Assembly (NCBI RefSeq): GCF_030687395.1
Contig: NZ_CP117430.1
Span: 2,728,001 to 2,792,000 of the forward strand
Direction of reading: 5' to 3'
Source: Pseudomonas wuhanensis
GTDB taxonomy: Bacteria > Pseudomonadota > Gammaproteobacteria > Pseudomonadales > Pseudomonadaceae
DNA length: 64,000 nt
Part shown: piece after piece, positions 23,611 to 63,797 of the stretch
Layout: each line of letters starts with the position of its first letter
How positions within the stretch are numbered: position 1 is the stretch's first letter
Position numbers and translations under genes: made by a program
The notes under the pieces: model-generated
Seen by the model: only the letters and a program-made list of their open reading frames with translations
Database searches by the model: none
What the model was told of the DNA's origin: nothing

Positions 23611-23624
23611 TTGATTGATGTCAA
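23611..23624 (+). promoter_or_regulatory. Anr/Dnr box upstream of CopD-like gene
   Basis: TTGATTGATGTCAA matches the FNR-type TTGAT-N4-ATCAA consensus at nine of ten positions. A TATTCT hexamer at 23647-23652 sits exactly where a -10 belongs if the box is centred at -41.5. This implies low-oxygen or NO control of the gene at 23690. Confidence 0.75.
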
Positions 23625-23689: not shown

Positions 23690-24133
23690 ATGCTCTATCC
23701 GCTGTTTCTAACCTTCCATCTGTTTGCCGCCCTGATCTTTATCGGCACGGTGTTCTTCGAAGTCCTTTTTTTGGAAAGCATCCGCAAACAGTTGCCCGCC
23801 AAAGTAATGCTGCTGGTCGAGCAGGGTATTGGCCGCCGAGCCCGCACCCTGATGCCGTGGGTGCTGCTGGTATTGTTCGGCGCGGGGCTGGGCATGGTCT
23901 GGTTGCGCTATTTGCCCGTCCTTGCAACGCCACTGGCCTCATCGTTCAGCACCTTGTTGCTGTTGAAAATCGTGGTAGCCGTGAGCGTGTTGCTGCATTT
24001 CCTGGGTGCCATGTTTTTGTTCAAAAGCGGCCGAATGAGCGCTCGATACCTGCATTTCATCCATGGCAGTCTGTTCTGCCATATGGTCGTCATCGTACTG
24101 CTGGCCAAGGGGATGTTTTACCTGACGTGGTGA
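23690..24133 (+). CDS. Four-helix membrane protein, CopD-like (paralogue A)
   Basis: 147 residues with four membrane segments. A conserved-looking His in helix 1 (LTFHLFAALIFIGTVFFEVL) and another in helix 4 (HGSLFCHMVVIVLLAKGMFY) could bind heme b. It is clearly homologous to the protein at 54250 beside nnrS: both share (H)L(F)AA-x-FIGT-x-FFEV at the start and HMV-x-IV-x-LAK-x-MFY at the end. An Anr/Dnr box precedes it, so it belongs to the anaerobic set. The biochemical role is unknown. Confidence 0.78.
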   Translation: MLYPLFLTFHLFAALIFIGTVFFEVLFLESIRKQLPAKVMLLVEQGIGRRARTLMPWVLLVLFGAGLGMVWLRYLPVLATPLASSFSTLLLLKIVVAVSVLLHFLGAMFLFKSGRMSARYLHFIHGSLFCHMVVIVLLAKGMFYLTW

Positions 24134-24177: not shown

Positions 24178-24191
24178 TTGATACAAGTCAA
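24178..24191 (+). promoter_or_regulatory. Anr/Dnr box upstream of the hemN-like gene pair
   Basis: TTGATACAAGTCAA, nine of ten consensus bases. The expected -10 position (24214-24219) holds GACACT, a weak but usable match. Controls the HemN-like gene and probably hemN. Confidence 0.7.
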
Positions 24192-24250: not shown

Positions 24251-25597
24251 ATGCTCGATTTTTCTCACGCCCCCGGCGATCTGATCGCTCGGTGCGATCA
24301 GGGCGTACTCGACCCCAACTGCCATGCCGACACGCAAAAGTTTCATGACGGCATCGGCTCTCTGGATTTGCTTCGTGCCTTGCGCGTCAGCCGCCAGAAA
24401 CGACGCCCGATCGCCCTGAACGTACAGCTGCCTTCCAGCCTCAAGCCAGCCTTTTGTTCCCCGCGCGATGCCTCCTGCGAGCGCGGCGAAATCGAACACT
24501 ACCTTCTGCGCCTGGAGCAGGAGATCGACCTCGTCGGTTGTCATCTGGGAGCGGAGCAACGGGTCGAACAATTTCATCTCGGCGGCGGAACACCCACCAT
24601 CGCTCATCTCGAGCGGCTGATGAATCATCTGCGTGGTCGATTCAATTTTCTCGAGCATGAGTGCGGCGACTACAGCGTCGACGTGGATCTACACCATACC
24701 GATTGGTCGACCATGGGCGCGCTGCGCGCTCAGGGATTCAATCATGTCAGCATTGGTGTTCCGGATATCGACACAGACTGTGACATGTCGGTGGCCTGCT
24801 ACCAGAACCCGGCCCCCATTCATTCACTGATCGATGCCGCCCGTACCTTTGGTTATCGATCGATCAATGTCGATCTGGGTTTTGGCCATGCCTGGCAAAC
24901 GCCAGAAAGCTTCGCGCTGAAACTGGCGGCGATCATTGAGCTGGAGCCGGACAGGCTGATGGTGTTCGACTATGCCCGACCACCACGCCGCTATCGGCCA
25001 AGGCTCGGCGACAAGGTCAGGGAACTGTGCAGCCAGGACGATAAAGGCGCGATGCGCCAGATCGCCTTCGAACAGTTGATCGCCGTGGGCTATCACTACA
25101 TCGGTATGGGGCAGTTTGTGCGGCCCGATGATGATCTGGCGTTCGCTCAGGAGCGCGGCCGATTACGTCGCACCTGTGACGGTTTTACCCGTCACGGTTA
25201 TTGCGACCATATCGGCTTCGGTTTGGGGGCTATCAGTCAAATCGACGATTTGTATACGCAAAACACCGATGCACCCGAGCGTTATCAGCAGCAGCTGGAT
25301 CGGGGCCAATTGCCGACGTCTCGTGGCTGGCGTTTCGAGGCGGGGGATCAGATAAGGCACATGGTCATGGAGCGACTGGCGTGTGATCAAGAGCTGGATA
25401 TCCTCGCCATCGAGCGGCGCTATGGACTGATTTTCTCCAGGTACTTTGCATCTGTCTGGCCATTGCTGGAGCAATTGAGTCGTGACGGGTTGATTGAATT
25501 GTCGGACCGTTTCATCAGCATTCTTCCCGCCGGCCGGCCGGAAGTGGATGCCATCTGCAGCCTGTTTGAAAAGGATTCGGGCAGTGCAACGCATTAA
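24251..25597 (+). CDS. HemN homologue lacking the radical-SAM cluster cysteines
   Basis: 448 residues, aligned over the full length with the true HemN encoded next to it. Shared landmarks are HLGGGTPT, the YIGMGQF-x2-PDDDLA block (YIGMDHFALPDDELA in HemN) and CDHIGFGLGAISQIDDLYTQN. HemN needs Cys-x3-Cys-x2-Cys. Here the three aligned positions are Ser63, Ala67 and Ser70, and the SAM-side Tyr is Asn57. It therefore should not hold the usual 4Fe-4S/SAM centre and is unlikely to be a coproporphyrinogen dehydrogenase. Heme or porphyrin binding, or a partner role to HemN, are possible. It shares an Anr/Dnr box and 22-base spacing with hemN. The intact frame argues against a pseudogene. Confidence 0.85.
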   Translation: MLDFSHAPGDLIARCDQGVLDPNCHADTQKFHDGIGSLDLLRALRVSRQKRRPIALNVQLPSSLKPAFCSPRDASCERGEIEHYLLRLEQEIDLVGCHLGAEQRVEQFHLGGGTPTIAHLERLMNHLRGRFNFLEHECGDYSVDVDLHHTDWSTMGALRAQGFNHVSIGVPDIDTDCDMSVACYQNPAPIHSLIDAARTFGYRSINVDLGFGHAWQTPESFALKLAAIIELEPDRLMVFDYARPPRRYRPRLGDKVRELCSQDDKGAMRQIAFEQLIAVGYHYIGMGQFVRPDDDLAFAQERGRLRRTCDGFTRHGYCDHIGFGLGAISQIDDLYTQNTDAPERYQQQLDRGQLPTSRGWRFEAGDQIRHMVMERLACDQELDILAIERRYGLIFSRYFASVWPLLEQLSRDGLIELSDRFISILPAGRPEVDAICSLFEKDSGSATH

Positions 25598-25619
25598 CCC
25601 TCCTGCGAGTTGATTGATC

Positions 25620-27008
25620 ATGAAACCTGCATTCGATTTCGATCGAGCCCTGGTCGAAAAGTATGACCGTCCGGGGCCGCGCTATACCTCTTACCCCACG
25701 GCGCCGCAGTTTCATCAGGCGTTTGCCATCGACGATTATCAGCGTGCCGCCTCCGACAGCAATCTGGCGGCAGTGCCCAAGCCATTGTCGGTGTATATCC
25801 ATATTCCGTTCTGCAAGAGCCTTTGCTACTACTGCGCCTGCAACAAAATCATTACCCAGAAAACCCATCGGGCGGTCGAATACCTGACGTACCTCAAGCG
25901 TGAAATCGTGATGCAGGCCGCGTTGTTCGACAGCACGCGCAAACTCACGCAACTGCACCTGGGCGGGGGCACGCCGACGTATTTGACCAGTGAGCAGCTG
26001 GCGGACCTGATGGACTGCTTGCACCAGGCGTTCGACATGGACGACAGCGATGACCATGAGTTTTCCATCGAAGTCGATCCGCGCACCATCAGCACCGAGC
26101 AGATCCAGTCGCTGCGCCAACTGGGCTTCAATCGTCTGAGCTTCGGCGTGCAGGACTTCGACCCCGACGTGCAGGTGGCGGTCAATCGCCAGCAAAGTGA
26201 AGAGCAGATCTATGCGCTGGTCGCGGCGGCGCGGGAGGTGCAATTCAAGTCGATCAGCGTCGATCTGATTTACGGCCTGCCACTGCAAACCGTGAACAGT
26301 TTCGACGTTACCCTTGGCAAGATCATTGCCCTGCGTCCGGACCGGATTGCCGCTTACAGCTACGCCCATTTACCCGAGCTGGTGCGCGCACAACGGTTGA
26401 TTCGCCCGGCGGACATGCCGCCACCGGAACGCAAGCTGGAGTTGCTGGAGCTGACCATTCGCCGGCTGACCGAGGCCGGTTATGTTTATATCGGCATGGA
26501 TCACTTCGCCTTGCCGGACGACGAACTGGCGCTGGCCCGCACCCATGGCACCTTGCAACGCAATTTTCAGGGCTACTCGACCCATGCCGACTGCGATTTG
26601 ATCGGCCTTGGAGTGTCCTCGATCGGCAAGGTCGGCGACAGCTACAGCCAAAGCGTCAAGGAGCTTTCGCAGTACTACGCCCGTATCGATCAAGGTTTGT
26701 TGCCGGTGCATCGGGGTTATCGCTTGAGCGCCGATGACTTGCTGCGCCGTGAGGTGATCAGCGACCTGATGTGCCACGGCAGGATCGATTTCGCCAAGTT
26801 CGAAGCGGGTCATGGCATTTGCTTCACCGAGTATTTTGCCGAGGCGCTGGCGCAACTGGACGAGCAGGTGCGTGACGGACTCCTGCAGATTCACAGCGAC
26901 CAATTGGTGCTGTTGCCGCAAGGGCATTTGATGATGCGCAGTGCCGCGATGGCGTTTGACGCTTACCTGGGCGAACAGCAAAAAGGTCAGTTTTCCCGCA
27001 CCGTTTGA
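25620..27008 (+). CDS. hemN: Oxygen-independent coproporphyrinogen III dehydrogenase, HemN
   Basis: 462 residues. The radical-SAM motif is Cys65-x3-Cys69-x2-Cys72 (HIPFCKSLCYYC), with the HemN-specific fourth Cys74 and the N-terminal GPRYTSYPTAPQF trip-wire. It converts coproporphyrinogen III to protoporphyrinogen IX without O2, supplying heme for the cytochromes made under denitrification. The ATG at 25620 follows the cluster-less homologue by 22 bases. It lies upstream of nosR. Confidence 0.95.
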   Translation: MKPAFDFDRALVEKYDRPGPRYTSYPTAPQFHQAFAIDDYQRAASDSNLAAVPKPLSVYIHIPFCKSLCYYCACNKIITQKTHRAVEYLTYLKREIVMQAALFDSTRKLTQLHLGGGTPTYLTSEQLADLMDCLHQAFDMDDSDDHEFSIEVDPRTISTEQIQSLRQLGFNRLSFGVQDFDPDVQVAVNRQQSEEQIYALVAAAREVQFKSISVDLIYGLPLQTVNSFDVTLGKIIALRPDRIAAYSYAHLPELVRAQRLIRPADMPPPERKLELLELTIRRLTEAGYVYIGMDHFALPDDELALARTHGTLQRNFQGYSTHADCDLIGLGVSSIGKVGDSYSQSVKELSQYYARIDQGLLPVHRGYRLSADDLLRREVISDLMCHGRIDFAKFEAGHGICFTEYFAEALAQLDEQVRDGLLQIHSDQLVLLPQGHLMMRSAAMAFDAYLGEQQKGQFSRTV

Positions 27009-27045: not shown

Positions 27046-27059
27046 TTGATTTCAATCAA
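27046..27059 (+). promoter_or_regulatory. Perfect Anr/Dnr box at the nosR promoter
   Basis: TTGATTTCAATCAA is a perfect FNR/Anr/Dnr consensus site. A TAACAT hexamer at 27082-27087 lies exactly at the class II -10 position, predicting a start near 27094. That start lies downstream of the ATG at 27086, which decides the nosR translation start. Confidence 0.88.
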
Positions 27060-27118
27060 GGGCAGGGCGCACAACGCTCCCTAACATGGCCGAAAGCCCC
27101 TTCGAAATCAGCGAGTTC

Positions 27119-29299
27119 ATGACAATCCATCCGCCTTCGACACATGGCAATCCGCGCATCTGGAGCGTCGGGCTGGTGCTGATGGTCTTGCTGGTGATCG
27201 CAGCGTTCGCGGCGGTGCAGGCCAAGTCTTACGGCGACATCGAGCAGCAGCGCATCGAGAAGGTCTTCCCGCAAACCGATTCGGTGTCCGCAGCCGAAGG
27301 CACGTTCAAGGTGCGCACGCTGTCCGCGGCCGGCAAGGTCATCGGGTATGTGTTCCAGAGCCTGGATGTGGTGGATATTCCGGCCTACTCGGGCAAACCC
27401 ATCAACACCCAGGTGATCCTCGACACCGCCGGCATGATTCAGGACGCCTATGTGCTGGAGCACCACGAACCGATTCTGCTGATTGGCATCCCCGAAGAAA
27501 AACTCCACGGTTTCAGCGCCCGATACAAAGGGATCAAGGTCAGCCAGCGGGTAGTCGTCGGCCATTCCAGTGACCCGAGCGCGGTCACCGTGGATGCCAT
27601 CGCTGGCGCAACGGTCACCGCCATGGTGGTCAATGAGGTCATCATGCGTGCCGCCCATGAGGTGGCCGTATCGCTGAAACTGATCGAGGACAGGAGCGGG
27701 GTGGTGAACAAGCCCGCCATCGTGCGCCAGGACTTTTTCGAGCCTGCCACCTGGGAGCAACTGACCGGTAACGGCGCCATTCGCCGGTTGAACCTGACCC
27801 GTGGGCAGGTCGATGCAGCCTTCAAGGGCACCGAAGCCGAAGGCGTCGACAACGCCGGCCCGGATCAAGTCGATGACACTTTTATCGAGCTGTACACCGC
27901 CGACCTGAACCCGCCGACCATTGGTCGTGCGCTGCTGGGCGACAATCAATATCGCTTGCTCATGCAGGAACTCAAACCCGGCGAGCAGGCCATCTTGGTG
28001 CTGGGGCATGGGCTGTTTTCCTATAAAGGCTCGGGTTATGTGCGCGGCGGGATTTTCGATCGGGTGCAATTGCGCCAGTTCGGCAACGTCATCAGCTTTC
28101 GCGACATGGACCATCAGCGGCTCTCCGACGTGTTTGCCAAGGGCATGCCTGAGTTCAATGAAATGTCGATTTTCATTGTACGCAAACCGGCTGGGTTCGA
28201 TCCGGGATCGCCTTGGTCCCTGGAGCTCCTGGTGCGACGTCAGACGGGACCGGTCAGCGGCACCTTCAGCAGCTTCGAACTGCCTTATCAACTGCCCGAG
28301 CCCTACCTTGAACGACCTGCACCCAGTGCCGAAGAACAGGCGGCCATCGAGGAAGCCAGCCGGCCGATGTGGTTGACCATCTGGTACCAGAAACACTTCC
28401 AGATCGCCGTCCTCGCGAGTGCGTTGTTGCTGCTGACGGCCATCCTGTTCCTGCAAGACAAACTCACCCGTCGGCCACGCTTTCTGCACTGGCTGCGCCG
28501 TGGTTACTTGCTCTTTACCGTGGTCTTTTTGGGCTGGTATGCCCTGGGGCAGTTGTCGGTGGTCAATGTCCTGACCTTTGTGCATGCGCTGTTCGAGCAC
28601 TTTCGCTGGGAGCTGTTTCTCACCGATCCGCTGATCTTCATGCTCTGGGTCTTCACCGCCGCGAGCATTCTGCTGTGGGGCCGTGGTGTGTTCTGCGGCT
28701 GGCTGTGCCCGTTTGGCGCCTTGCAAGAGTTGATCAACGAAGCCGCGCGCAAATTGAAAATTCCCCAGTACGAATTGCCCTTTGCGGTGCATGAGCGGCT
28801 GTGGGCGATCAAATACATCATCTTGCTGCTGCTTTTTGGCATCTCCCTGGAATCGATGTCCACCGCCGAGCTGTTCGCCGAGGTGGAACCCTTCAAGACC
28901 GCCATCACCCTCAAGTTCGACCGCCAGTGGTGGTTCGTGCTCTATGCGGTAGCGCTGCTGGTCATCAATCTTTTCACGCGAAAAGTCTATTGCCGCTACA
29001 TCTGCCCGTTGGGTGCAGCGCTGGCGATCCCAACCAAATTGCGCCTGTTCGACTGGCTCAAGCGCCGCAAGGAATGCGGCAGCCCCTGCCAGTTGTGCGC
29101 CAAGGAATGCGAGATCCAGGCGATTCATCCCGATGGCCGGATCAATGCCAACGAGTGCCACTACTGCCTCGATTGCCAAATGACCTACCACAACGAAGAC
29201 AAATGCCCGCCGCTGATCAACAAGCGCAAGAAGCGCGGCAAACCGGCACCCGTGGCGGTGCAACTGATACCTGTCGTGGAAGTGCCAGCGGCTGAATGA
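27119..29299 (+). CDS. nosR: NosR, membrane iron-sulfur flavoprotein for N2O reduction
   Basis: 726 residues from ATG 27119. Order: N-terminal membrane segment, periplasmic FMN-binding domain with the flavinylation motif AGATVT, further membrane helices with two Cys-x3-Cys-Pro motifs (CGWLCP, CRYICP), and a C-terminal bacterial ferredoxin domain (CQLCAKECE; CHYCLDCQ). NosR is needed for nosZ expression and for electron supply to and maturation of NosZ. The 11-residue longer version from 27086 would start inside the predicted -10 element and so cannot be on that transcript. First gene of nosRZDFYL. Confidence 0.93.
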   Translation: MTIHPPSTHGNPRIWSVGLVLMVLLVIAAFAAVQAKSYGDIEQQRIEKVFPQTDSVSAAEGTFKVRTLSAAGKVIGYVFQSLDVVDIPAYSGKPINTQVILDTAGMIQDAYVLEHHEPILLIGIPEEKLHGFSARYKGIKVSQRVVVGHSSDPSAVTVDAIAGATVTAMVVNEVIMRAAHEVAVSLKLIEDRSGVVNKPAIVRQDFFEPATWEQLTGNGAIRRLNLTRGQVDAAFKGTEAEGVDNAGPDQVDDTFIELYTADLNPPTIGRALLGDNQYRLLMQELKPGEQAILVLGHGLFSYKGSGYVRGGIFDRVQLRQFGNVISFRDMDHQRLSDVFAKGMPEFNEMSIFIVRKPAGFDPGSPWSLELLVRRQTGPVSGTFSSFELPYQLPEPYLERPAPSAEEQAAIEEASRPMWLTIWYQKHFQIAVLASALLLLTAILFLQDKLTRRPRFLHWLRRGYLLFTVVFLGWYALGQLSVVNVLTFVHALFEHFRWELFLTDPLIFMLWVFTAASILLWGRGVFCGWLCPFGALQELINEAARKLKIPQYELPFAVHERLWAIKYIILLLLFGISLESMSTAELFAEVEPFKTAITLKFDRQWWFVLYAVALLVINLFTRKVYCRYICPLGAALAIPTKLRLFDWLKRRKECGSPCQLCAKECEIQAIHPDGRINANECHYCLDCQMTYHNEDKCPPLINKRKKRGKPAPVAVQLIPVVEVPAAE

Positions 29300-29354
29300 A
29301 GCTCGCAAGCGCACGTCTGCAGTGACCGTTTTATCCCTTCAAGGAGCACGCAAC

Positions 29355-31274
29355 ATGACTGACACAGAATCCAAAAAATCCATGCAGGAAGAGGAACAGG
29401 CGGGACTCAGCCGTCGCGGTTTTCTGGGCAGCAGTGCTGTCACCGGTGCGGTGCTGGCGGGGGCCACGACCCTCGGCGGCGCAGTGTTCAGCCGTGAATC
29501 CTGGGCGGCCGCGGTCAAGGATGCGCAGGCGAAAACCCATGTCGGCCCCGGTGAGCTGGACGAATACTACGGCTTCTGGAGCGGTGGTCATCAGGGCGAA
29601 GTGCGGGTACTGGGCGTGCCGTCGATGCGTGAGTTGACGCGTATTCCGGTGTTCAACGTCGATTCGGCCACCGGCTGGGGCCTGACCAACGAAAGCAAAC
29701 GGATCCTGGGCGACAGTGCAAAGTTTCAGAACGGCGATTGCCATCACCCGCATATCTCCATGACCGATGGCAAGTACGACGGCAAGTACCTGTTCATCAA
29801 CGACAAGGCCAACTCCCGTGTCGCGCGCATCCGCCTGGACATCATGAAGTGCGACAAGATGCTTACAGTGCCGAACGTGCAAGCCATTCACGGCCTGCGT
29901 CTGCAAAAAGTGCCCTACACCAAGTATGTGTTCGCCAATGCCGAGTTCGTCATCCCACACCCCAATGACGGCCGCACGTTCGATCTGCAAGACAAGAACA
30001 GCTTCACCCTGTTCAACGCCATCGATGCCGAGAAAATGGAGATGGCATTCCAGGTGATCGTCGACGGCAACCTGGACAACGCCGATATGGATTACACCGG
30101 TAAGTACGCCGCGTCTACCTGCTACAACTCGGAGAAGGCTTACGATCTTGGCGGCATGATGCGCAACGAGCGCGACTGGGTCGTGGTGTTCAACATCCCG
30201 CGCATCGAGGCTGCGATCAAGGCCGGCAGGTTCATCACTCTGGAAGACTCGAAAGTGCCAGTGGTCGACGGTCGTAAAACCGATGGCAAGGACTCCGAGT
30301 TCACGCGCTATATCCCGGTGCCGAAGAACCCCCACGGCCTCAACACTTCATCTGATGGCAAGTATTTCATTGCCAACGGCAAGCTGTCGCCAACGGTATC
30401 GATGATTGCCATCGACCGGCTGGACGACTTGTTCGCCGATAAATTCAAAGACCCGCGTGAGGTTATCGTCGCCGAGCCGGAGCTGGGCCTGGGCCCTTTG
30501 CACACCACTTTCGACGGACGCGGCAACGCCTACACCACGCTGTTTATCGACAGTCAGGTGGTGAAGTGGAACATGGAGGAAGCGATACGCGCCTACAAGG
30601 GCGAGAAGGTCAATTACATCAAGCAAAAGCTCGACGTGCAGTATCAGCCTGGCCATAACCACGCCTCGCTGACCGAAACCAGTGAAGCGGATGGCAAGTG
30701 GCTGGTGGTGTTGTGCAAATTCTCCAAGGACCGCTTCCTGCCGACCGGGCCGCTGCACCCGGAAAATGACCAGTTGATCGATATTTCCGGCGAAGAGATG
30801 AAGCTGGTACACGACGGCCCTGCGTTTGCCGAACCTCACGATTGCATCATGGCGCGCCGGGACCAGATCAAGACCCAAAAGATCTGGAGCCGCAACGACC
30901 CTTTCTTTGCCGCCACCGTGGAGCTGGCCAAGAAAGACGGGATCAACCTGGAGACCGACAACAAGGTCATCCGCGACGGTAATCAGGTGCGGGTCTACAT
31001 GACCTCCATGGCGCCGGCCTATGGTCTGACCGAGTTCACCGTCAAGCAGGGCAACGAGGTCACCGTGATCATCACCAACATCGACCAGATCGAGGATGTG
31101 ACCCACGGTTTCGTCATGACCAACCATGGCGCCAGCATGGAGATCAGCCCGCAGCAAACGTCGTCCATCACCTTTACCGCCGACAAGGCCGGCCTGCATT
31201 GGTACTACTGCAGCTGGTTCTGCCATGCGCTGCACATGGAAATGGTCGGGCGCATGAAGGTCGAGCGGGCCTGA
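29355..31274 (+). CDS. nosZ: Nitrous oxide reductase, NosZ (clade I, Tat-exported)
   Basis: 639 residues. A Tat signal (SRRGFLG) marks folded export, the clade I type. The seven-bladed propeller holds the CuZ histidines (for example DCHHPH). The C-terminal cupredoxin domain holds CuA: Cys619, Trp621, Cys623, His627 and Met630. It reduces N2O to N2 in the periplasm. ATG 29355 follows AAGGAG and is consistent with the Tat motif position. Confidence 0.97.
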   Translation: MTDTESKKSMQEEEQAGLSRRGFLGSSAVTGAVLAGATTLGGAVFSRESWAAAVKDAQAKTHVGPGELDEYYGFWSGGHQGEVRVLGVPSMRELTRIPVFNVDSATGWGLTNESKRILGDSAKFQNGDCHHPHISMTDGKYDGKYLFINDKANSRVARIRLDIMKCDKMLTVPNVQAIHGLRLQKVPYTKYVFANAEFVIPHPNDGRTFDLQDKNSFTLFNAIDAEKMEMAFQVIVDGNLDNADMDYTGKYAASTCYNSEKAYDLGGMMRNERDWVVVFNIPRIEAAIKAGRFITLEDSKVPVVDGRKTDGKDSEFTRYIPVPKNPHGLNTSSDGKYFIANGKLSPTVSMIAIDRLDDLFADKFKDPREVIVAEPELGLGPLHTTFDGRGNAYTTLFIDSQVVKWNMEEAIRAYKGEKVNYIKQKLDVQYQPGHNHASLTETSEADGKWLVVLCKFSKDRFLPTGPLHPENDQLIDISGEEMKLVHDGPAFAEPHDCIMARRDQIKTQKIWSRNDPFFAATVELAKKDGINLETDNKVIRDGNQVRVYMTSMAPAYGLTEFTVKQGNEVTVIITNIDQIEDVTHGFVMTNHGASMEISPQQTSSITFTADKAGLHWYYCSWFCHALHMEMVGRMKVERA

Positions 31275-44059: not shown

Positions 44060-45829
<1,770 letters not shown>

Positions 45830-53030: not shown

Positions 53031-54221
53031 ATGCAAGTGCTTGACCGCCGTAAAGCAATGGCAATCACGCCGCTGTTTCGTCTGGCCTTTCGACCATTTT
53101 TCCTCGCCGGTAGCCTCTTGGCGGTGCTGGCCATACCGCTCTGGCTGGCGGCCTTCAGTGGCTCGATTTCCAACTGGCAGCCGGCAGGCGGCTGGCTGGG
53201 CTGGCATCGGCATGAATTGTTGTTCGGGTTCGGCTTGGCGATTATCGCGGGCTTTCTGCTGACGGCCGTGCAGACCTGGACCGGTCGCCCCGGCCTCAGC
53301 GGCAAACCGTTGGCCGCTCTGGCGCTGCTGTGGTTATTGGCACGAGTGGCCTGGCTGGCCAATGCGCCGCGGCCGTTGCTCGCGGTGCTGGAAATGGCGT
53401 TCCCGTTGGCGGTGGCGGTGCTCATGGGCTTCACCTTGTGGAAGGTGCGGCAGAAACGTAACTACCCGATTGTGGTGGTTCTGCTGTTGTTGGCCGCGGC
53501 CGACGGGTTGTCCTTGTACGGCCTGGTCGAGGGGCATGAAGGCTGGCAGCGCCAAGGTGTGCTGACCGGCATTTGGTTGGTGGCGGCGATGATGGGGTTG
53601 ATCGGCGGGCGGGTGATTCCGTTCTTCATCCAGCGTGGCCTCGGCAAGGTCGATGGCGTTGCCCCTTGGCCATGGCTGGATTGGCTGTTGCTGATTGGCT
53701 CGCCCCTCGTGGCGTTGTTATATGCCGCTGGACCTGCGCTTGCCCCCAATCTCTGGGTGGGCCTGTTGTTCGCCGTGTTGGCCGCAGGGCATCTGGTGCG
53801 CCTGGTTCGCTGGCATGATCGCGCCCTCTGGCACGTGCCGTTGCTATGGTCGTTGTACCTGGCTTATGGCTGGTTGGCGGTGGCGTGTCTCGGGATGGCG
53901 CTGTGGCATTTCGGTGTGTCGATTAACCCGAGTCTGGCGGTGCATTGCCTGACCATCGGTGCCATGGGTGGCCTGGTGCTGGCGATGATTGCGCGGGTCA
54001 GCCTCGGGCATACAGGCCGTGCGCTGGAACCGCCGTCGGGGATGACCCTGGCGTTCATCTTGCTCAACCTGGCGTGCCTGAGCCGGGTCGTGTTGATCGA
54101 GTTCTTTCCCTTGCCGGCATTGTGGCTGGCCGGTCTGTGCTGGGCGTTGGCGTTTGCGCTGTATGTCTGGCGCTATGGGCCGATGCTGTTGCGGGCCCGG
54201 GTCGACGGTCATCCGGGATGA
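53031..54221 (+). CDS. nnrS: NnrS family heme- and copper-containing membrane protein
   Basis: 396 residues, about 12 membrane segments. The NnrS signature is visible: LFRLAFRPFFLAGSLLA at the start, WHRHELLFGFGLAIIAGFLL, GGRVIPFFIQRG, and the C-terminal HCLTIGAMGGLVLAMIARVS with HTGR. It protects against NO-linked stress in denitrifiers. GAGGAG precedes the ATG. The CopD-like gene follows 28 bases later. Confidence 0.93.
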   Translation: MQVLDRRKAMAITPLFRLAFRPFFLAGSLLAVLAIPLWLAAFSGSISNWQPAGGWLGWHRHELLFGFGLAIIAGFLLTAVQTWTGRPGLSGKPLAALALLWLLARVAWLANAPRPLLAVLEMAFPLAVAVLMGFTLWKVRQKRNYPIVVVLLLLAAADGLSLYGLVEGHEGWQRQGVLTGIWLVAAMMGLIGGRVIPFFIQRGLGKVDGVAPWPWLDWLLLIGSPLVALLYAAGPALAPNLWVGLLFAVLAAGHLVRLVRWHDRALWHVPLLWSLYLAYGWLAVACLGMALWHFGVSINPSLAVHCLTIGAMGGLVLAMIARVSLGHTGRALEPPSGMTLAFILLNLACLSRVVLIEFFPLPALWLAGLCWALAFALYVWRYGPMLLRARVDGHPG

Positions 54222-54249: not shown

Positions 54250-54687
54250 ATGTATCCCTTTTTACTGGTCACGCATTTGCTGGCAGCGATTGCCTTCATC
54301 GGCACGCTATTTTTCGAGGTGGTCATCTGGCATCGAGCGCGCCAGCAGTTGGCGGATACCGCGCAATCCACGGCGAATCAGGCGATTGCCGTGCGCTCGC
54401 GCAAGGTTCTGCATGGCGTGGTGCTGTTGTTGTATGGCGCCGGCATCGGCCTGGCGTGGCAGTACCGGGGCGCATTGAGTCAGCCGTTAGCCAGTAGCTT
54501 TGGCATGTTGTTGAGCCTGAAGATCCTGTTGGCCCTGAGCATCATCGGCCATTACTTACTGCTGGCCTATTGGCTGACCCATGCGCGCCTGACCGCGACT
54601 CGTGCCAGCTGGATTCGCCGCAGCATCCTCGGGCACATGGTGTTGATCGTGATCCTGGCCAAGGCGATGTTCTATTGGCACGGTTGA
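54250..54687 (+). CDS. Four-helix membrane protein, CopD-like (paralogue B)
   Basis: 145 residues, four membrane segments. Related to the protein at 23690; conserved are a helix-1 His (VTHLLAAIAFIGTLFFEVVI) and a helix-4 His (GHMVLIVILAKAMFYWHG). Likely cotranscribed with nnrS. A heme b-binding membrane protein is a reasonable guess from the paired His. Function unknown. Confidence 0.78.
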   Translation: MYPFLLVTHLLAAIAFIGTLFFEVVIWHRARQQLADTAQSTANQAIAVRSRKVLHGVVLLLYGAGIGLAWQYRGALSQPLASSFGMLLSLKILLALSIIGHYLLLAYWLTHARLTATRASWIRRSILGHMVLIVILAKAMFYWHG

Positions 54688-54762: not shown

Positions 54763-55437
54763 TCAATGGCGAGGGTTCAGGGCATTGATGAACAGCACGT
54801 TGTTTTCCAGATGGATGTGTTGCATCAGGTCGTCTTTGAATTCCAGCAGCCCGCGGTAGAGCGCACGCCAGGTGTTGCAGGCATCGGCAGGCGGGATGAT
54901 GTGATTGGTCAGGGTGAGCATTTTCTCCAGTGCTTCGCCATGTTGATCATGTTCGAAGCGCAACACCTGAATCGGCGGAGCCGCTTGAGGGCCGATGCCT
55001 TGTTGCAGCATCGGGAACAGCACCTGTTCTTCCTTGAGCATGTGGCCTTCGAGTTCTTGTTGCATGTCGGTCAGAAGATCGGCCAAGCCGTTGGGGCAGC
55101 TGCTGCGCGCGCCATGGACCTGCTCGACGCGGCGGGCCAGACGGATCAGTTCCGGCAATTGCTCGCGGTGACGGGCGTGATAGCGCGTCAGAAGGTGGGC
55201 GATCAACAGTTCCAAAGGTTCGTTACGCCAATCGTGCTGGGTTTCGCCGGCGTCTTGCAGAATGTTCAGGGCGTCGGCAATGAGGAGCGGATCGAGGTTT
55301 TTGCCAAGGGCTGCTTCACGCAGGCTTTTATGCCCGCCGCAACAGAAGTCCAGTTTGAAGGTATGGAAGATCCGGGTGGCACCGGGAATGTCGCAGGCCA
55401 GTTGGCCGAGGCTTTGTTCCAATAGGGTCTGGCTCAT
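54763..55437 (-). CDS. ytfE: Iron-sulfur cluster repair di-iron protein (YtfE/ScdA/RIC, DnrN)
   Basis: 224 residues. The N-terminal ScdA domain holds FCCGGHKSL (about 31-39), followed by a hemerythrin-like four-helix domain with His/Glu iron ligands (YHARHREQL, EGHMLKEEQVLF, FEHDQHGE, HIHLENNVLF). It repairs or supplies iron to NO-damaged centres. AAGGA precedes ATG 55437. A sigma-54 promoter and three NorR boxes lie upstream, so it is a NorR target. Confidence 0.93.
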   Translation of the reverse strand: MSQTLLEQSLGQLACDIPGATRIFHTFKLDFCCGGHKSLREAALGKNLDPLLIADALNILQDAGETQHDWRNEPLELLIAHLLTRYHARHREQLPELIRLARRVEQVHGARSSCPNGLADLLTDMQQELEGHMLKEEQVLFPMLQQGIGPQAAPPIQVLRFEHDQHGEALEKMLTLTNHIIPPADACNTWRALYRGLLEFKDDLMQHIHLENNVLFINALNPRH

Positions 55438-55478
55438 CAGGGTTCCTTGTTTGGGTTTCAACGGTTACTCAGGCTCAC

Positions 55479-55535: not shown

Positions 55536-55590
55536 GTGATAGATACCCTGACGCTTTAGGGTGAATCCAACCATAGAGGGTGATTACTAC
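55536..55590. promoter_or_regulatory. Three NorR enhancer sites between ytfE and norR
   Basis: GTGATAGATAC (55536-55546), GTGAATCCAAC (55561-55571) and GTGATTACTAC (55580-55590) each fit the NorR core GT-N7-AC. Three sites upstream of a sigma-54 promoter is the arrangement known from the E. coli norR-norV gap. The first lies about 42 bases upstream of the -24 element. Confidence 0.82.
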
Positions 55591-55591
55591 C

Positions 55592-57121
55592 ATGCTGCGA
55601 GAAAGCCTGGCAGCCGACCTGATCGTCGAGTTGCCCAATGCCGTGCGGTTACAACGATTGGTCCAGACCCTGCGCGAATACTTCAACAGTGGCGCCGTGG
55701 GCTTGCTGCGTCTGGATGACGACAGCCTCAGGCCCGTTGCGACGGTGGGACTGGTTCATGAAGCATTGGGGCGCCGGTTCGTCATCGCCCAGCATCCGCG
55801 GCTGGCGGCAATCATGGCGTCGCGTGAGCCGACCTGGTTCGAACCCGACAGTCGCCTGCCGGACCCCTACGACGGCTTGCTCGACAACCATGTCGGCGAA
55901 CCGCTGCCGGTGCATGACTGCATGGGCGTGAGTCTTTATGTCGAGGGGCGGATCTGGGGCGCGATCACCCTCGATGCGCTGCACGCCGGGACCTTCGACA
56001 GCCGCGCGCGGGAAGAGCTCAAGCGCTGCACGTTGCAGATCGAAGCTGCTGTGCGGGTTACCCGTCTGGAACAGGAAAACCGCAGCTTGCGTTTGTCCCG
56101 CAGCGATCCCCAGGACTTGCGAATGCCGGTCGAGGAGGGCGAGATCCTCGGGCAAAGTGAGGTGTTGCATCAGTTGCTCAATGAGCTGGATGTACTGGCC
56201 GACTCCGATCTGCCGGTGTTGCTGTTGGGCGAGACCGGCGTTGGCAAAGAGCTGTTCGCCCGGCGCTTGCATCGTCTTTCAAGGCGCCACCATAAACCGC
56301 TGATACACGTTAACTGCGCCGCTTTGCCGGAGTCGCTGGCAGAGAGTGAGTTGTTCGGGCATGTCAAAGGCGCCTTTTCCGGCGCCACCAGTGACCGTGC
56401 CGGACGTTTCGATGCCGCCAACGGAGGCACGCTGTTTCTCGATGAAGTCGGGGAATTGCCATTGGCCGTGCAAGCGAAGTTACTGCGCACCCTGCAGAAC
56501 GGTGAGATCCAGCGTCTCGGCGCCGACAAGCCACTGCACGTGGATGTGCGCATCATCGCCGCCACCAACCGACACCTGCCGGACAGCATCCGCGACGGTT
56601 TTTTTCGCGCCGATCTGTATCACCGGCTCTCGGTGTACCCGGTGCCGATTCCGCCCTTGCGCGAACGCGGTAACGATGTGTTGATGCTGGCCGGGCATTT
56701 CCTTGAACTCAATCGGGCGCGGCTCGGCCTGCGTGGCTTGCGCCTGTCGCCAGCGGCCGAACGCGCGCTGCTGCTTTATACCTGGCCAGGCAATGTGCGC
56801 GAATTGGAACACGTGATCAGTCGGGCTGCGTTGAAGCAGCTCAGTCGCGGGACGAGTCGCGCGTTGATCATGACGCTGGAGCCTGAAATTCTCGATCTCG
56901 ACAGCGCGATGGCGGCATCGGGGACGGTGGTCGAACCATCCCCGGACGTTACGGCTGATCTGCCGTTCCAGCCCTTGGGCGAAGCCGTCGACGATTACCA
57001 GCGCAAGAAAATCCTCCAGGCCTTGAGCCTGTCCGGGGAAAACTGGGCCAGCGCTGCGCGAATCCTGGAAATCGACCCCAGCAACCTGCACAAACTGGCG
57101 CGGCGTCTGCGTCTCAAGTAG
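55592..57121 (+). CDS. norR: NorR, NO-sensing sigma-54 enhancer-binding protein
   Basis: 509 residues from ATG 55592. An N-terminal GAF domain with a non-heme iron NO sensor shows residues equivalent to the known ligands (Arg78, Asp91, Asp94, Cys110, Asp128). The AAA+ domain has Walker A GETGVGKE (213-220) and the sigma-54 loop as GAFSGA (260-265) instead of GAFTGA. A Fis-type HTH lies at the C-terminus (NWASAARILEIDPSNLHKLA). A GTG at 55580 in the same frame is part of a NorR site and not a start. Divergent from its target ytfE. Confidence 0.93.
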   Translation: MLRESLAADLIVELPNAVRLQRLVQTLREYFNSGAVGLLRLDDDSLRPVATVGLVHEALGRRFVIAQHPRLAAIMASREPTWFEPDSRLPDPYDGLLDNHVGEPLPVHDCMGVSLYVEGRIWGAITLDALHAGTFDSRAREELKRCTLQIEAAVRVTRLEQENRSLRLSRSDPQDLRMPVEEGEILGQSEVLHQLLNELDVLADSDLPVLLLGETGVGKELFARRLHRLSRRHHKPLIHVNCAALPESLAESELFGHVKGAFSGATSDRAGRFDAANGGTLFLDEVGELPLAVQAKLLRTLQNGEIQRLGADKPLHVDVRIIAATNRHLPDSIRDGFFRADLYHRLSVYPVPIPPLRERGNDVLMLAGHFLELNRARLGLRGLRLSPAAERALLLYTWPGNVRELEHVISRAALKQLSRGTSRALIMTLEPEILDLDSAMAASGTVVEPSPDVTADLPFQPLGEAVDDYQRKKILQALSLSGENWASAARILEIDPSNLHKLARRLRLK

Positions 57122-62424: not shown

Positions 62425-63797
62425 GGGACTGTCAGAAATTTTGTGTTCGGGCATAACATGTTGAAAAGGAGCATGTATGCCGACCAAAAAGAAACCGGCC
62501 TCGGAGGCCAAAACCCAGCTTCCTTCGATTCCGAAGGAGCTGATCGATCAGTTCGTTAAAGGCCCAATGAGCGCCGAGGCGATTCAGGACGCATCCATGG
62601 CGTTCAAAAAGGCGCTTATCGAGCGAGCCCTTGGCGCGGAGCTGGGTCACCACCTTGGCTACCCTCAGGGCGCGGAGCGCCCTGAGGAGTCGAGTAACCA
62701 GCGCAACGGCAAAAGCAGCAAGACCGTGCTGACCGATGATGGCCCGCTGCGTCTGGACATTCCTCGGGATCGCGATGGCAGCTTCGCGCCAATGCTGATC
62801 CCCAAGCATGAGCGTCGGTTCACGGGCTTCGACGACAAAATCATTGCCATGTACGCCCGTGGCATGACCGTCCGAGAGATCCGGGCATTCCTTTCGGAGC
62901 AGTACGGGACCGATGTTTCCCATGATTTCATCAGCTCGGTCACTGACGCAGTGTTGGAGGAAGTGACTGCCTGGCAACAACGCCCGCTTGAGCCGATGTA
63001 TCCGGTGATTTTCTTCGATGCGCTGCGGGTCAAAATCCGTGAGGAAGGACTGGTTCGCAACAAGGCCATCTACCTGGCTCTGGGCGTGCTGCCGGACGGC
63101 ACCCGAGACATTTTGGGCATCTGGATTGAGACCACTGAGGGGGCCAAGTTCTGGATGAAGGTCTTCAACGACCTCAAGACCCGTGGCGTTGAGGATGTAT
63201 TGATCGCGGTAACTGACGGCCTTAAAGGCATGCCAGAAGCCTTGAGTGCGGTGTTTCCGACGACGACCTTGCAGACCTGCATCGTGCACCTGATCCGTAA
63301 CAGTCTTGATTACGCCTCCTGGGACAAGCGCCGCGAGTTGGCCAAAGCCCTCAAGCCGGTTTATCAGGCGCTTAACGTTGAAGCTGCCGAGCAAGCTCTG
63401 GACGCATTTGAAACGGGGCCTTGGGGCAAACAATACCCAACAGTCGTAGCCGCTTGGAGACGTGCCTGGGATCGAGTCATCCCGTTTTTTGTCTTCCCGC
63501 CTGCCATCCGAAAAGTGATCTACACCACTAACGCCATCGAGAGCATCAATGCTCAGTTGCGCAAGATCATCAAGACAAGAGGCCACTTCCCGACTGATGA
63601 TGCAGCGACGAAGCTGATCTGGCTGGCACTGCAAAACATCACGGCCAATTGGGGCAGCGCAGCGCACGACTGGAAGAGCGCAATGAATCAGTTTGCGATT
63701 CTTTATGGCGATCGATTTACCAGGTCAAACTGGTGAAATGAGGGCTTGCCTTATGGCAGGCCGTTACCGGCCCGCACACAAAAAATCTGACACTCCC
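62425..63797 (+). mobile_element. Complete IS256-family insertion sequence (1373 bp)
   Basis: Terminal inverted repeats read GGGACTGTCAGAAATTTTGT on the left and, complemented, GGGAGTGTCAGATTTTTTGT on the right, continuing to GCGGGC. The flanks carry an identical 8-bp direct duplication, GCCCTTAC (62417-62424 and 63798-63805), the size expected for IS256. One intact transposase gene fills the element. Confidence 0.93.
62477..63736 (+). CDS. IS256-family transposase
   Basis: 419 residues, intact. DDE residues appear in FFDALRVKIREEG, in VTDGLKGMPEA and in the E of TTNAIESINAQLRK; the C2H-type spacing (TLQTCIVHLIRNSL) is also present. It catalyses copy-out transposition of this element. A GGAG ribosome site lies before the ATG. 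No frameshift or stop, so the element is likely active. Confidence 0.94.
   Translation: MPTKKKPASEAKTQLPSIPKELIDQFVKGPMSAEAIQDASMAFKKALIERALGAELGHHLGYPQGAERPEESSNQRNGKSSKTVLTDDGPLRLDIPRDRDGSFAPMLIPKHERRFTGFDDKIIAMYARGMTVREIRAFLSEQYGTDVSHDFISSVTDAVLEEVTAWQQRPLEPMYPVIFFDALRVKIREEGLVRNKAIYLALGVLPDGTRDILGIWIETTEGAKFWMKVFNDLKTRGVEDVLIAVTDGLKGMPEALSAVFPTTTLQTCIVHLIRNSLDYASWDKRRELAKALKPVYQALNVEAAEQALDAFETGPWGKQYPTVVAAWRRAWDRVIPFFVFPPAIRKVIYTTNAIESINAQLRKIIKTRGHFPTDDAATKLIWLALQNITANWGSAAHDWKSAMNQFAILYGDRFTRSNW

Follow-up and report, generated by a model that had tools for sequence, protein, structure and literature searches.

The gene studied here encodes a relative of HemN, the oxygen-independent coproporphyrinogen III oxidase, in which the iron-sulfur cluster motif of this radical-SAM enzyme is missing, and it lies directly upstream of a canonical hemN. 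The locus raises the question of whether such a gene is decaying or has been kept for a different task, and which task this might be. The window referred to below is the complete stretch of 64,000 nucleotides of the Pseudomonas wuhanensis genome that was analysed.

Gene neighbourhood and family assignment

The gene, termed pseudo-HemN in the following, is surrounded by genes of denitrification and of the response to NO:

23690 to 24133 (+): CopD-like membrane protein Mem, 147 amino acids, four helices, the tightest genomic partner of pseudo-HemN
24251 to 25597 (+): cluster-free HemN paralogue (pseudo-HemN), 448 amino acids
25620 to 27008 (+): canonical HemN with CX3CX2C (hemN2), 598.5 bits in NCBIfam, probably co-transcribed with pseudo-HemN
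27086 to 29299 (+): nosR, NF046105 above cut-off
29322 to 31274 (+): nosZ, TIGR04244 above cut-off
44060 to 45751 (-): nirS by presumed name, denitrification marker, no NCBIfam match
53031 to 54221 (+): nnrS (PF05940), part of an NO-response group of the kind beside which pseudo-HemN is kept in sister-branch relatives
54250 to 54687 (+): paralogue of the CopD-like protein, the ORF directly after nnrS; the genome has a second mem match, whose place is not given among the matches listed
54763 to 55461 (-): ric/ytfE, iron-sulfur repair protein, NF008221 above cut-off
55580 to 57121 (+): norR, NF003451 above cut-off

NosR, NosZ, NirJ, NorR and Ric were checked with NCBIfam models and NnrS, MoaB-like, MoeA and U32 proteins with Pfam, while nirS, norB, dnr and the other nir and nos gene names are those we presume to apply. 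A transposase-like ORF (62477 to 63736, +), presumably of the IS256 type, borders the stretch of denitrification and molybdenum genes.

The frame at 24251 to 25597 is unbroken over 448 codons, as stated in a preliminary description of this DNA, and the 22-base gap to hemN given there was found again, with the hemN2 ATG at 25620 (the first start called by the ORF tool is a TTG at 25614). The best NCBIfam model for pseudo-HemN is hemN (TIGR00538), an equivalog with a curated cut-off of 324.95 bits, below which the protein stays with 279.9 bits. In Pfam, HemN_C is above threshold, whereas the radical-SAM superfamily model PF04055 remains below its gathering score (21 vs. 29.5 bits). The HemW model TIGR00539 is also missed (54.7 vs. 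205.4 bits). A HemN fold with a C-terminal HemN_C domain was found by Pfam, in an AlphaFold model (mean pLDDT 82.3, from a 71-row alignment including two hemN1, hemN2 and L117, a relative treated below) and by structural matching of this prediction to E. coli HemN (1olt; TM 0.80, 35% identity in the structural alignment).

Loss of the cluster and cofactor sites

The part of the gene corresponding to the cluster loop of HemN is the following:

24431 to 24481 (+): degenerate former cluster loop, codons 61 to 77, with Ser63, Ala67, relic Cys69 and Pro71; residues 66 to 77 with pLDDT under 50

CX3CX2C is absent from pseudo-HemN both in the HMMER alignment against 1olt and in a 186-row alignment (84 crown, 8 sister-branch, 1 intermediate, 20 hemN1 and 73 hemN2 rows, some strains being present twice where named loci and G-handle loci overlap). 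The preliminary description had placed Ser63, Ala67 and Ser70 at the three cluster cysteines and Asn57 at a Tyr of HemN. Ser63, Ala67 and Asn57 were recovered at these positions, while the third cysteine corresponds to Cys69 in both alignments, the assignment of Ser70 having arisen from counting without a one-residue gap. The fourth cysteine of CX3CX2CXC is replaced by Pro71. Judged from its alignment column, Cys69 is a relic and not a conserved ligand: in the crown, cysteine is found here in 47 of 84 rows and a gap in 30, and 32 of the 84 have no cysteine in residues 56 to 82.

A shifted cluster motif, which had been named as evidence that would speak against a cluster-free protein, was rejected at the sequence level for the relatives examined. 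Strict CX3CX2C is missing from the first 115 residues of all 113 relatives of at least 400 amino acids (among the 120 listed of 1279 found), and from residues 41 to 110 of 92 pseudo-HemN rows, compared to its presence in 20 of 20 hemN1 and 73 of 73 hemN2 rows. The looser CX2-4CX1-3C was seen in the first 115 residues of P0023 only, one of the 120 listed.

The SAM-1 site has decayed in all pseudo-HemN other than L117, its Gln being replaced by Pro171. In block 306 to 324, which we take to provide the second-SAM contacts in HemN, a Phe is mostly Cys in pseudo-HemN. Pseudo-HemN is thus devoid of the metal-cluster and cofactor parts needed for the work of HemN, and databases, in which many of its relatives are named coproporphyrinogen III oxidase, very probably mislabel such proteins.

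Origin and a probable intermediate

A tree was built from 49 proteins: 23 pseudo-HemN, 13 hemN1, 11 hemN2, one intermediate and a single HemW row on a very long branch. Within it, the pseudo-HemN rows form one clade (support 100/100) with L117 as sister (100/99). Their grouping with two hemN1 rows has a support of 91/91, and that with all hemN1 as against hemN2 one of 84/81, both below the star of the tool. In agreement with this grouping near hemN1, pseudo-HemN is 44% identical to the third hemN of the genome, a hemN1-type protein, but only 31 to 32% to the neighbouring hemN2. The gene adjoining this third hemN is one we recognise as anr; hemN1 beside anr was seen for the copy of the window genome and for seven matches from other genera. 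The genome also holds one HemW-like protein with the cluster motif, and pseudo-HemN groups with hemN rather than with this protein. By this phylogeny pseudo-HemN arose once, most likely through duplication of the anr-linked hemN type.

L117 (9590 to 10957, -) encodes a HemN relative in which the first two cluster cysteines are Gly and the scaffold is mostly kept. It is 60% identical to hemN1 and scores 53.9 bits with PF04055. Besides GGGTPT, it retains the Tyr, the Gln and the last two of the four cysteines. Its gene is located between norR and moaB. L117 is a probable evolutionary intermediate; since it has the SAM-1 Gln and Gly at the first cysteines, the first cluster ligands were probably lost before the SAM-1 site. 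Alternatively, L117 may have lost its two cysteines recently and independently and have been attracted to the clade in the tree.

The order norR, pseudo-HemN or intermediate, moaB, moeA was found in seven sister-branch loci (L114, L118, L119 and L121 to L124) and in L117. On the norR side of these eight loci lie ric and a CopD-like gene, with nnrS beside the latter in seven (L122 differs). In L116, norR adjoins pseudo-HemN, and L120 has no norR within its stretch. On the origin we favour, a copy of the anr-linked hemN type would have come into an NO-response group, between norR and moaB, and would there have lost the first two cluster cysteines and then the SAM-1 site together with an N-terminal segment.

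Distribution and link to denitrification

A search of relatives for the same replacement of cysteines had been proposed in the preliminary description. Motif-less pseudo-HemN was found in 86 of 398 genomes of the genus at a carrier threshold of at least 416 bits, with the intermediate G288 (411.2 bits) kept apart and a canonical hemN as the next listed match (404.7 bits); these counts apply to one sampled genus and depend on score cut-offs. In the family, four of 198 genomes, all of the same genus, carry pseudo-HemN at E ≤ 1e-122, a cut-off that would miss more diverged forms. Seven matches of 47 to 49% identity in three other genera were rejected as members, being canonical hemN with an intact motif beside an anr homologue. 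Because all carriers found belong to a single genus, pseudo-HemN is no requirement of denitrification in itself.

Within the genus, the link to denitrification drawn earlier is borne out. Pseudo-HemN is present in 63 of the 67 genomes with nirS, and nos or nir genes occur in the fetched stretch of 63 out of 80 named loci, seven of these with nirQ or nirO only. Among the 23 carriers without nirS, norB was found in 16 and nirK above cut-off in seven, together 17 genomes, compared to norB in none and nirK in one of 20 genomes without pseudo-HemN, which were hand-picked from low handle numbers and are not a random sample. Six of the 86 carriers have neither nirS, norB nor nirK as tested; pseudo-HemN is damaged in two of them (G022 and G285) and looks intact in four.

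Four nirS genomes are not counted as carriers (G017, G302, G307 and G317), and the loci of the first three were inspected. In G017 and G302 (L161 and L162), the CopD-like membrane gene is adjoined by a diverged pseudo-HemN of reduced length, with ORFs of 306 to 330 amino acids and about 50% identity. In G307, the membrane gene is present with no pseudo-HemN beside it. L163 (G297) looks like the result of a deletion of the denitrification stretch: next to the CopD-like gene it has short pieces of nirS and of the beginning of pseudo-HemN, lying close to each other.

Anr/Dnr boxes

Three boxes were located in the part of the window concerned:

23611 to 23624: Anr/Dnr-like box TTGATTGATGTCAA, upstream of the CopD-like gene, one mismatch
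24178 to 24191: Anr/Dnr-like box TTGATACAAGTCAA, upstream of pseudo-HemN
27046 to 27059: Anr/Dnr-like box TTGATTTCAATCAA, upstream of nosR

The box ahead of pseudo-HemN, already described, has one mismatch to TTGATN4ATCAA, which we take as the Anr/Dnr consensus. When up to one mismatch was allowed, a box was found ahead of pseudo-HemN in 75 of 80 loci (110 bases scanned), compared to 1 of 400 shuffles. For the CopD-like gene, this was the case in 65 of 74 scannable loci (200 bases; 0 of 370 shuffles), and the nosR box is a perfect match in 29 of 30 scanned loci. No box was found before hemN2 in any of 70 loci (70 bases scanned). With a box ahead of pseudo-HemN and none ahead of hemN2, both genes look like one operon, probably read as one transcript from an Anr/Dnr promoter. 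The proximity of anr and hemN, and Anr boxes ahead of hemN, have been reported (PMC6588701, available part).

Selection and pattern of conservation

A dN/dS comparison, likewise proposed earlier, revealed purifying selection on pseudo-HemN (Nei-Gojobori median 0.167, maximum 0.45 over 1037 pairs). The medians for hemN2 and the CopD-like gene were 0.085 and 0.126; the pairs were drawn from 66 loci (among them the window) that possess the three genes, with hemN2 dS limited to 0.05 to 0.9, and dS is partly saturated. Damage or shortness was flagged in eight of 99 loci: L068 and L131 have an inner stop, L118 an unclear start, and L088, L090, L128, L134 and L135 are short. In these last five, pseudo-HemN ends approximately 75 to 100 codons early, so that much of the C-terminal domain is missing, a recurrent truncation. 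A slowly decaying, functionless gene carried by its neighbours might be suspected from a median dN/dS about twice that of HemN2 and from the stopped or C-terminally truncated copies (L068, L131 and the five short loci). The dN/dS values, the conserved box, the invariant new residues and the 91 unflagged loci make this very improbable indeed, and a pseudogene or sequencing artefact is excluded by dN/dS and reading frames. As a conserved homologue without catalytic residues that is under selection, pseudo-HemN corresponds to what is generally termed a pseudoenzyme.

Across 68 loci with both genes, pseudo-HemN is overall 2.07 times as variable as HemN2, while windows within residues 31 to 55, 187 to 202 and 413 to 429 are less variable than in HemN2. 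The first of these includes the following helix:

24359 to 24397 (+): helix, codons 37 to 49, more conserved than in HemN2, candidate new interface

Strong variation is found in the cluster loop (61 to 77; mean diversity 0.65), the SAM-1 loop (171 to 187; 0.44 for the Q/R loop) and residues 1 to 30 and 250 to 261. Conserved parts are the loops following strands 3, 5 and 6 (0.22, 0.10 and 0.28), and residues 31 to 49 and 212 to 218 vary little (0.15 and 0.10). Strand 3 (0.36 vs. 0.00 in HemN2) and block 306 to 324 (0.23 vs. 0.005) greatly exceed HemN2 in variability, a pattern by which the HemN pocket is not simply preserved.

Family-specific residues were defined by three features: they hardly change within the crown, are the most frequent residue in the sister branch and are seldom found in hemN1 or hemN2. 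Among them are R130, P171, P187, G210, W215, K224, D240, Y248, G287, F312 and E374. G210, W215, D240 and Y248 lie at or near the conserved loops after strands 3, 5 and 6. P171, G210 and D240 are placed by the secondary structure of the model at ends of barrel strands, predicted to be the usual active-site face. A remodelled barrel with a SAM- and cluster-free reaction of its own would accommodate these three invariant positions; it appears quite improbable, as no catalytic motif is recognisable and the former cofactor loops (66 to 77 and 174 to 183) are partly below a pLDDT of 50.

Candidate partners

Pseudo-HemN had been described as paired with hemN. In the named loci (80 of 108, several stretches ending early at contig ends), hemN2 lies downstream in 70 and the CopD-like gene upstream in 78. 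Twelve of the 86 carriers lack the adjacent hemN type and ten of the 80 loci lack hemN2 within the fetched stretch (L097 stops at a contig end), so that the pairing is non-essential and an obligatory association with HemN2 found no support. No HemN2 orthologue was found with the HemN2 query at E ≤ 1e-40 in the twelve carriers (among them G222, 78% complete, and G273, in 1200 contigs). All twelve gave a match of 48 to 50%, of hemN1 type by identity, and pseudo-HemN itself was matched in eleven.

In the 22 pseudo-HemN rows from stretches without hemN2, L41, R42, R45 and S192 are unchanged throughout and S37 in 21, while A188 and T199 vary. The newly constrained surface would therefore be independent of HemN2; HemN1, the CopD-like protein or another protein are possible partners. 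A docking or regulatory subunit, which would pair with catalytic HemN1 or HemN2 and stabilise, shield or control it, is a role that pseudoenzymes often take, and the frequent hemN2 downstream, the newly constrained stretches at about 31 to 55 and 187 to 202 and the hemN1-type match in every hemN2-less carrier are consistent with it. We nevertheless consider it unlikely: the constrained residues are kept in carriers without HemN2, which would therefore not be the specific partner, if there is one, and HemN is described as monomeric.

The CopD-like protein, on which the preliminary description is silent, is the tighter partner. An orthologue, defined by at least 65% identity in the matches listed, is present in 84 of 86 carriers. 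It also occurs in 12 genomes without a counted pseudo-HemN. Mem is predicted to consist of four helices (pLDDT 88.9) and has no accepted Pfam or NCBIfam match. Its identity to a PF05425 member of the same genome is 34% over 74 columns (hhalign probability 63.7), and some relatives are named CopD family copper resistance protein in the source annotation. The comparison with a HemJ profile was not significant; in a multiple alignment, His10 and Lys93 of Mem align with His10 and Lys87 of the HemJ of the genome. Such a His/Lys pair is catalytic in HemJ. Weaker relatives of Mem (41 to 49%) recur in related loci, and the paralogue after nnrS is also present in L167.

The strong co-occurrence with a gene that resembles a PF05425 member and has a paralogue after nnrS could point to copper or heme handling, by which the pair would protect or feed NosZ, NirK or cytochromes, the more so as purified HemN is inactivated in vitro by Cu(I) (PMC9576991, available part). 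This is distinctly unlikely, as the CopD function is assigned by similarity alone at the hhalign probability given and without a significant HemJ comparison, Mem occurs in 12 genomes without counted pseudo-HemN, and neither Cys69 nor Cys309 is fully conserved. Equally doubtful is an NO-proof escort that would dock on the CopD/HemJ-like membrane protein and hand over the HemN product or heme; if true, it would let the heme supply of cytochromes survive the NO made by denitrification itself.

Proposed role

The explanation we tentatively prefer, while giving it slightly less than an even chance, is that of a neofunctionalised HemN pseudoenzyme, an NO-insensitive and non-catalytic binding partner for heme supply in denitrification. 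Purified HemN is inactivated by NO in vitro (PMC9576991, available part). A denitrifier makes NO when heme is most needed, and a cluster-free fold would be immune to this attack. Pseudo-HemN would have kept the HemN barrel and gained new invariant positions. It would act behind an Anr/Dnr box, mostly among denitrification genes, usually before a working HemN and beside the CopD-like protein. Its cargo may be a client protein or a tetrapyrrole, the latter being heme or the substrate or product of HemN. By handing this on, pseudo-HemN would maintain heme supply in the presence of NO, which would harm HemN and other Fe-S enzymes. That a tetrapyrrole is bound is our inference from the conserved part of the barrel, HemW and Campylobacter CgdH2 serving as analogues. 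The NO context of norR, ric and nnrS around the sister-branch copies and L117 counts in favour of a binding partner in heme supply, as do the missing motif in a gene under purifying selection, the single origin, the uneven decay and the link to denitrification genes. Motif loss, descent, selection, co-occurrence and the box are results of computation, from which the order of loss (through L117), expression, non-catalysis, ligand and partner were deduced. The role suggested in the preliminary description, a cluster-less partner of HemN for coproporphyrinogen or heme, is supported in part: occurrence in relatives, selection and the denitrification link agree with it, an essential pairing with hemN does not.

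Evidence to the contrary comes from the variable strand 3 and block 306 to 324, the six carriers with neither nirS, norB nor nirK, the restriction to one genus and the nirS genome G307 with Mem alone. Observations on P. donghuensis HYS also count against it. In the available part of PMC11200716, 'four hemN genes' of this strain, all taken as coproporphyrinogen III oxidase, were deleted and a virulence effect is reported for one of them only; in a gacS mutant, hemN1 and hemN2 were raised 7.2- and 5.0-fold. HYS (L100) has the pseudo-HemN/hemN2 pair beside nir genes, and its three HemN-type matches are pseudo-HemN, a 45% match of hemN1 type and the neighbour. Pseudo-HemN is therefore probably among the four genes deleted, the fourth may be the HemW-like gene, and the hemN1 and hemN2 of that study might be the pseudo-HemN operon. 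Pseudo-HemN is therefore of concern for annotation, in databases as well as in such a study.

A radical-SAM enzyme without its cluster that is yet kept by selection, with a probable intermediate still alive, offers a rare view of the origin of a pseudoenzyme. It makes two questions testable: heme synthesis under self-made NO in denitrifiers, and a tetrapyrrole carrier between HemN and the membrane.

Comparison with known systems

No description of a cysteine-less HemN in Pseudomonas was found in the open-access literature, coverage of which was partial, so that one may exist. HemN/CgdH (TIGR00538; 1olt) has the same fold and descent as pseudo-HemN, which differs in lacking CX3CX2C, in Asn57 for Tyr and Pro171 for Gln, and in its score below cut-off. 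PsgB (TIGR04419, 'HemN-related non-iron pseudo-SAM protein') is alike by the name of the model; the adjacent HemN matches it weakly (26.4 bits) and pseudo-HemN not at all at E ≤ 0.001 (nine families matched). TIGR04347, a pseudo-SAM/SPASM family, is a heme-branch pseudo-SAM by model name alone and relates to NirJ, not to HemN; the NirJ of the window matches it below cut-off. Bradyrhizobium HemN1, compared by description only, is a second hemN copy and an NnrR target in a denitrifier (PMC6710368, available part), and is called nonfunctional in the part of PMC11200716 at hand. HemW and Campylobacter CgdH2 resemble HemN and reportedly bind heme but do not make protoporphyrinogen; unlike pseudo-HemN, both are described with a 4Fe-4S motif or cluster (PMC10320005, available part).
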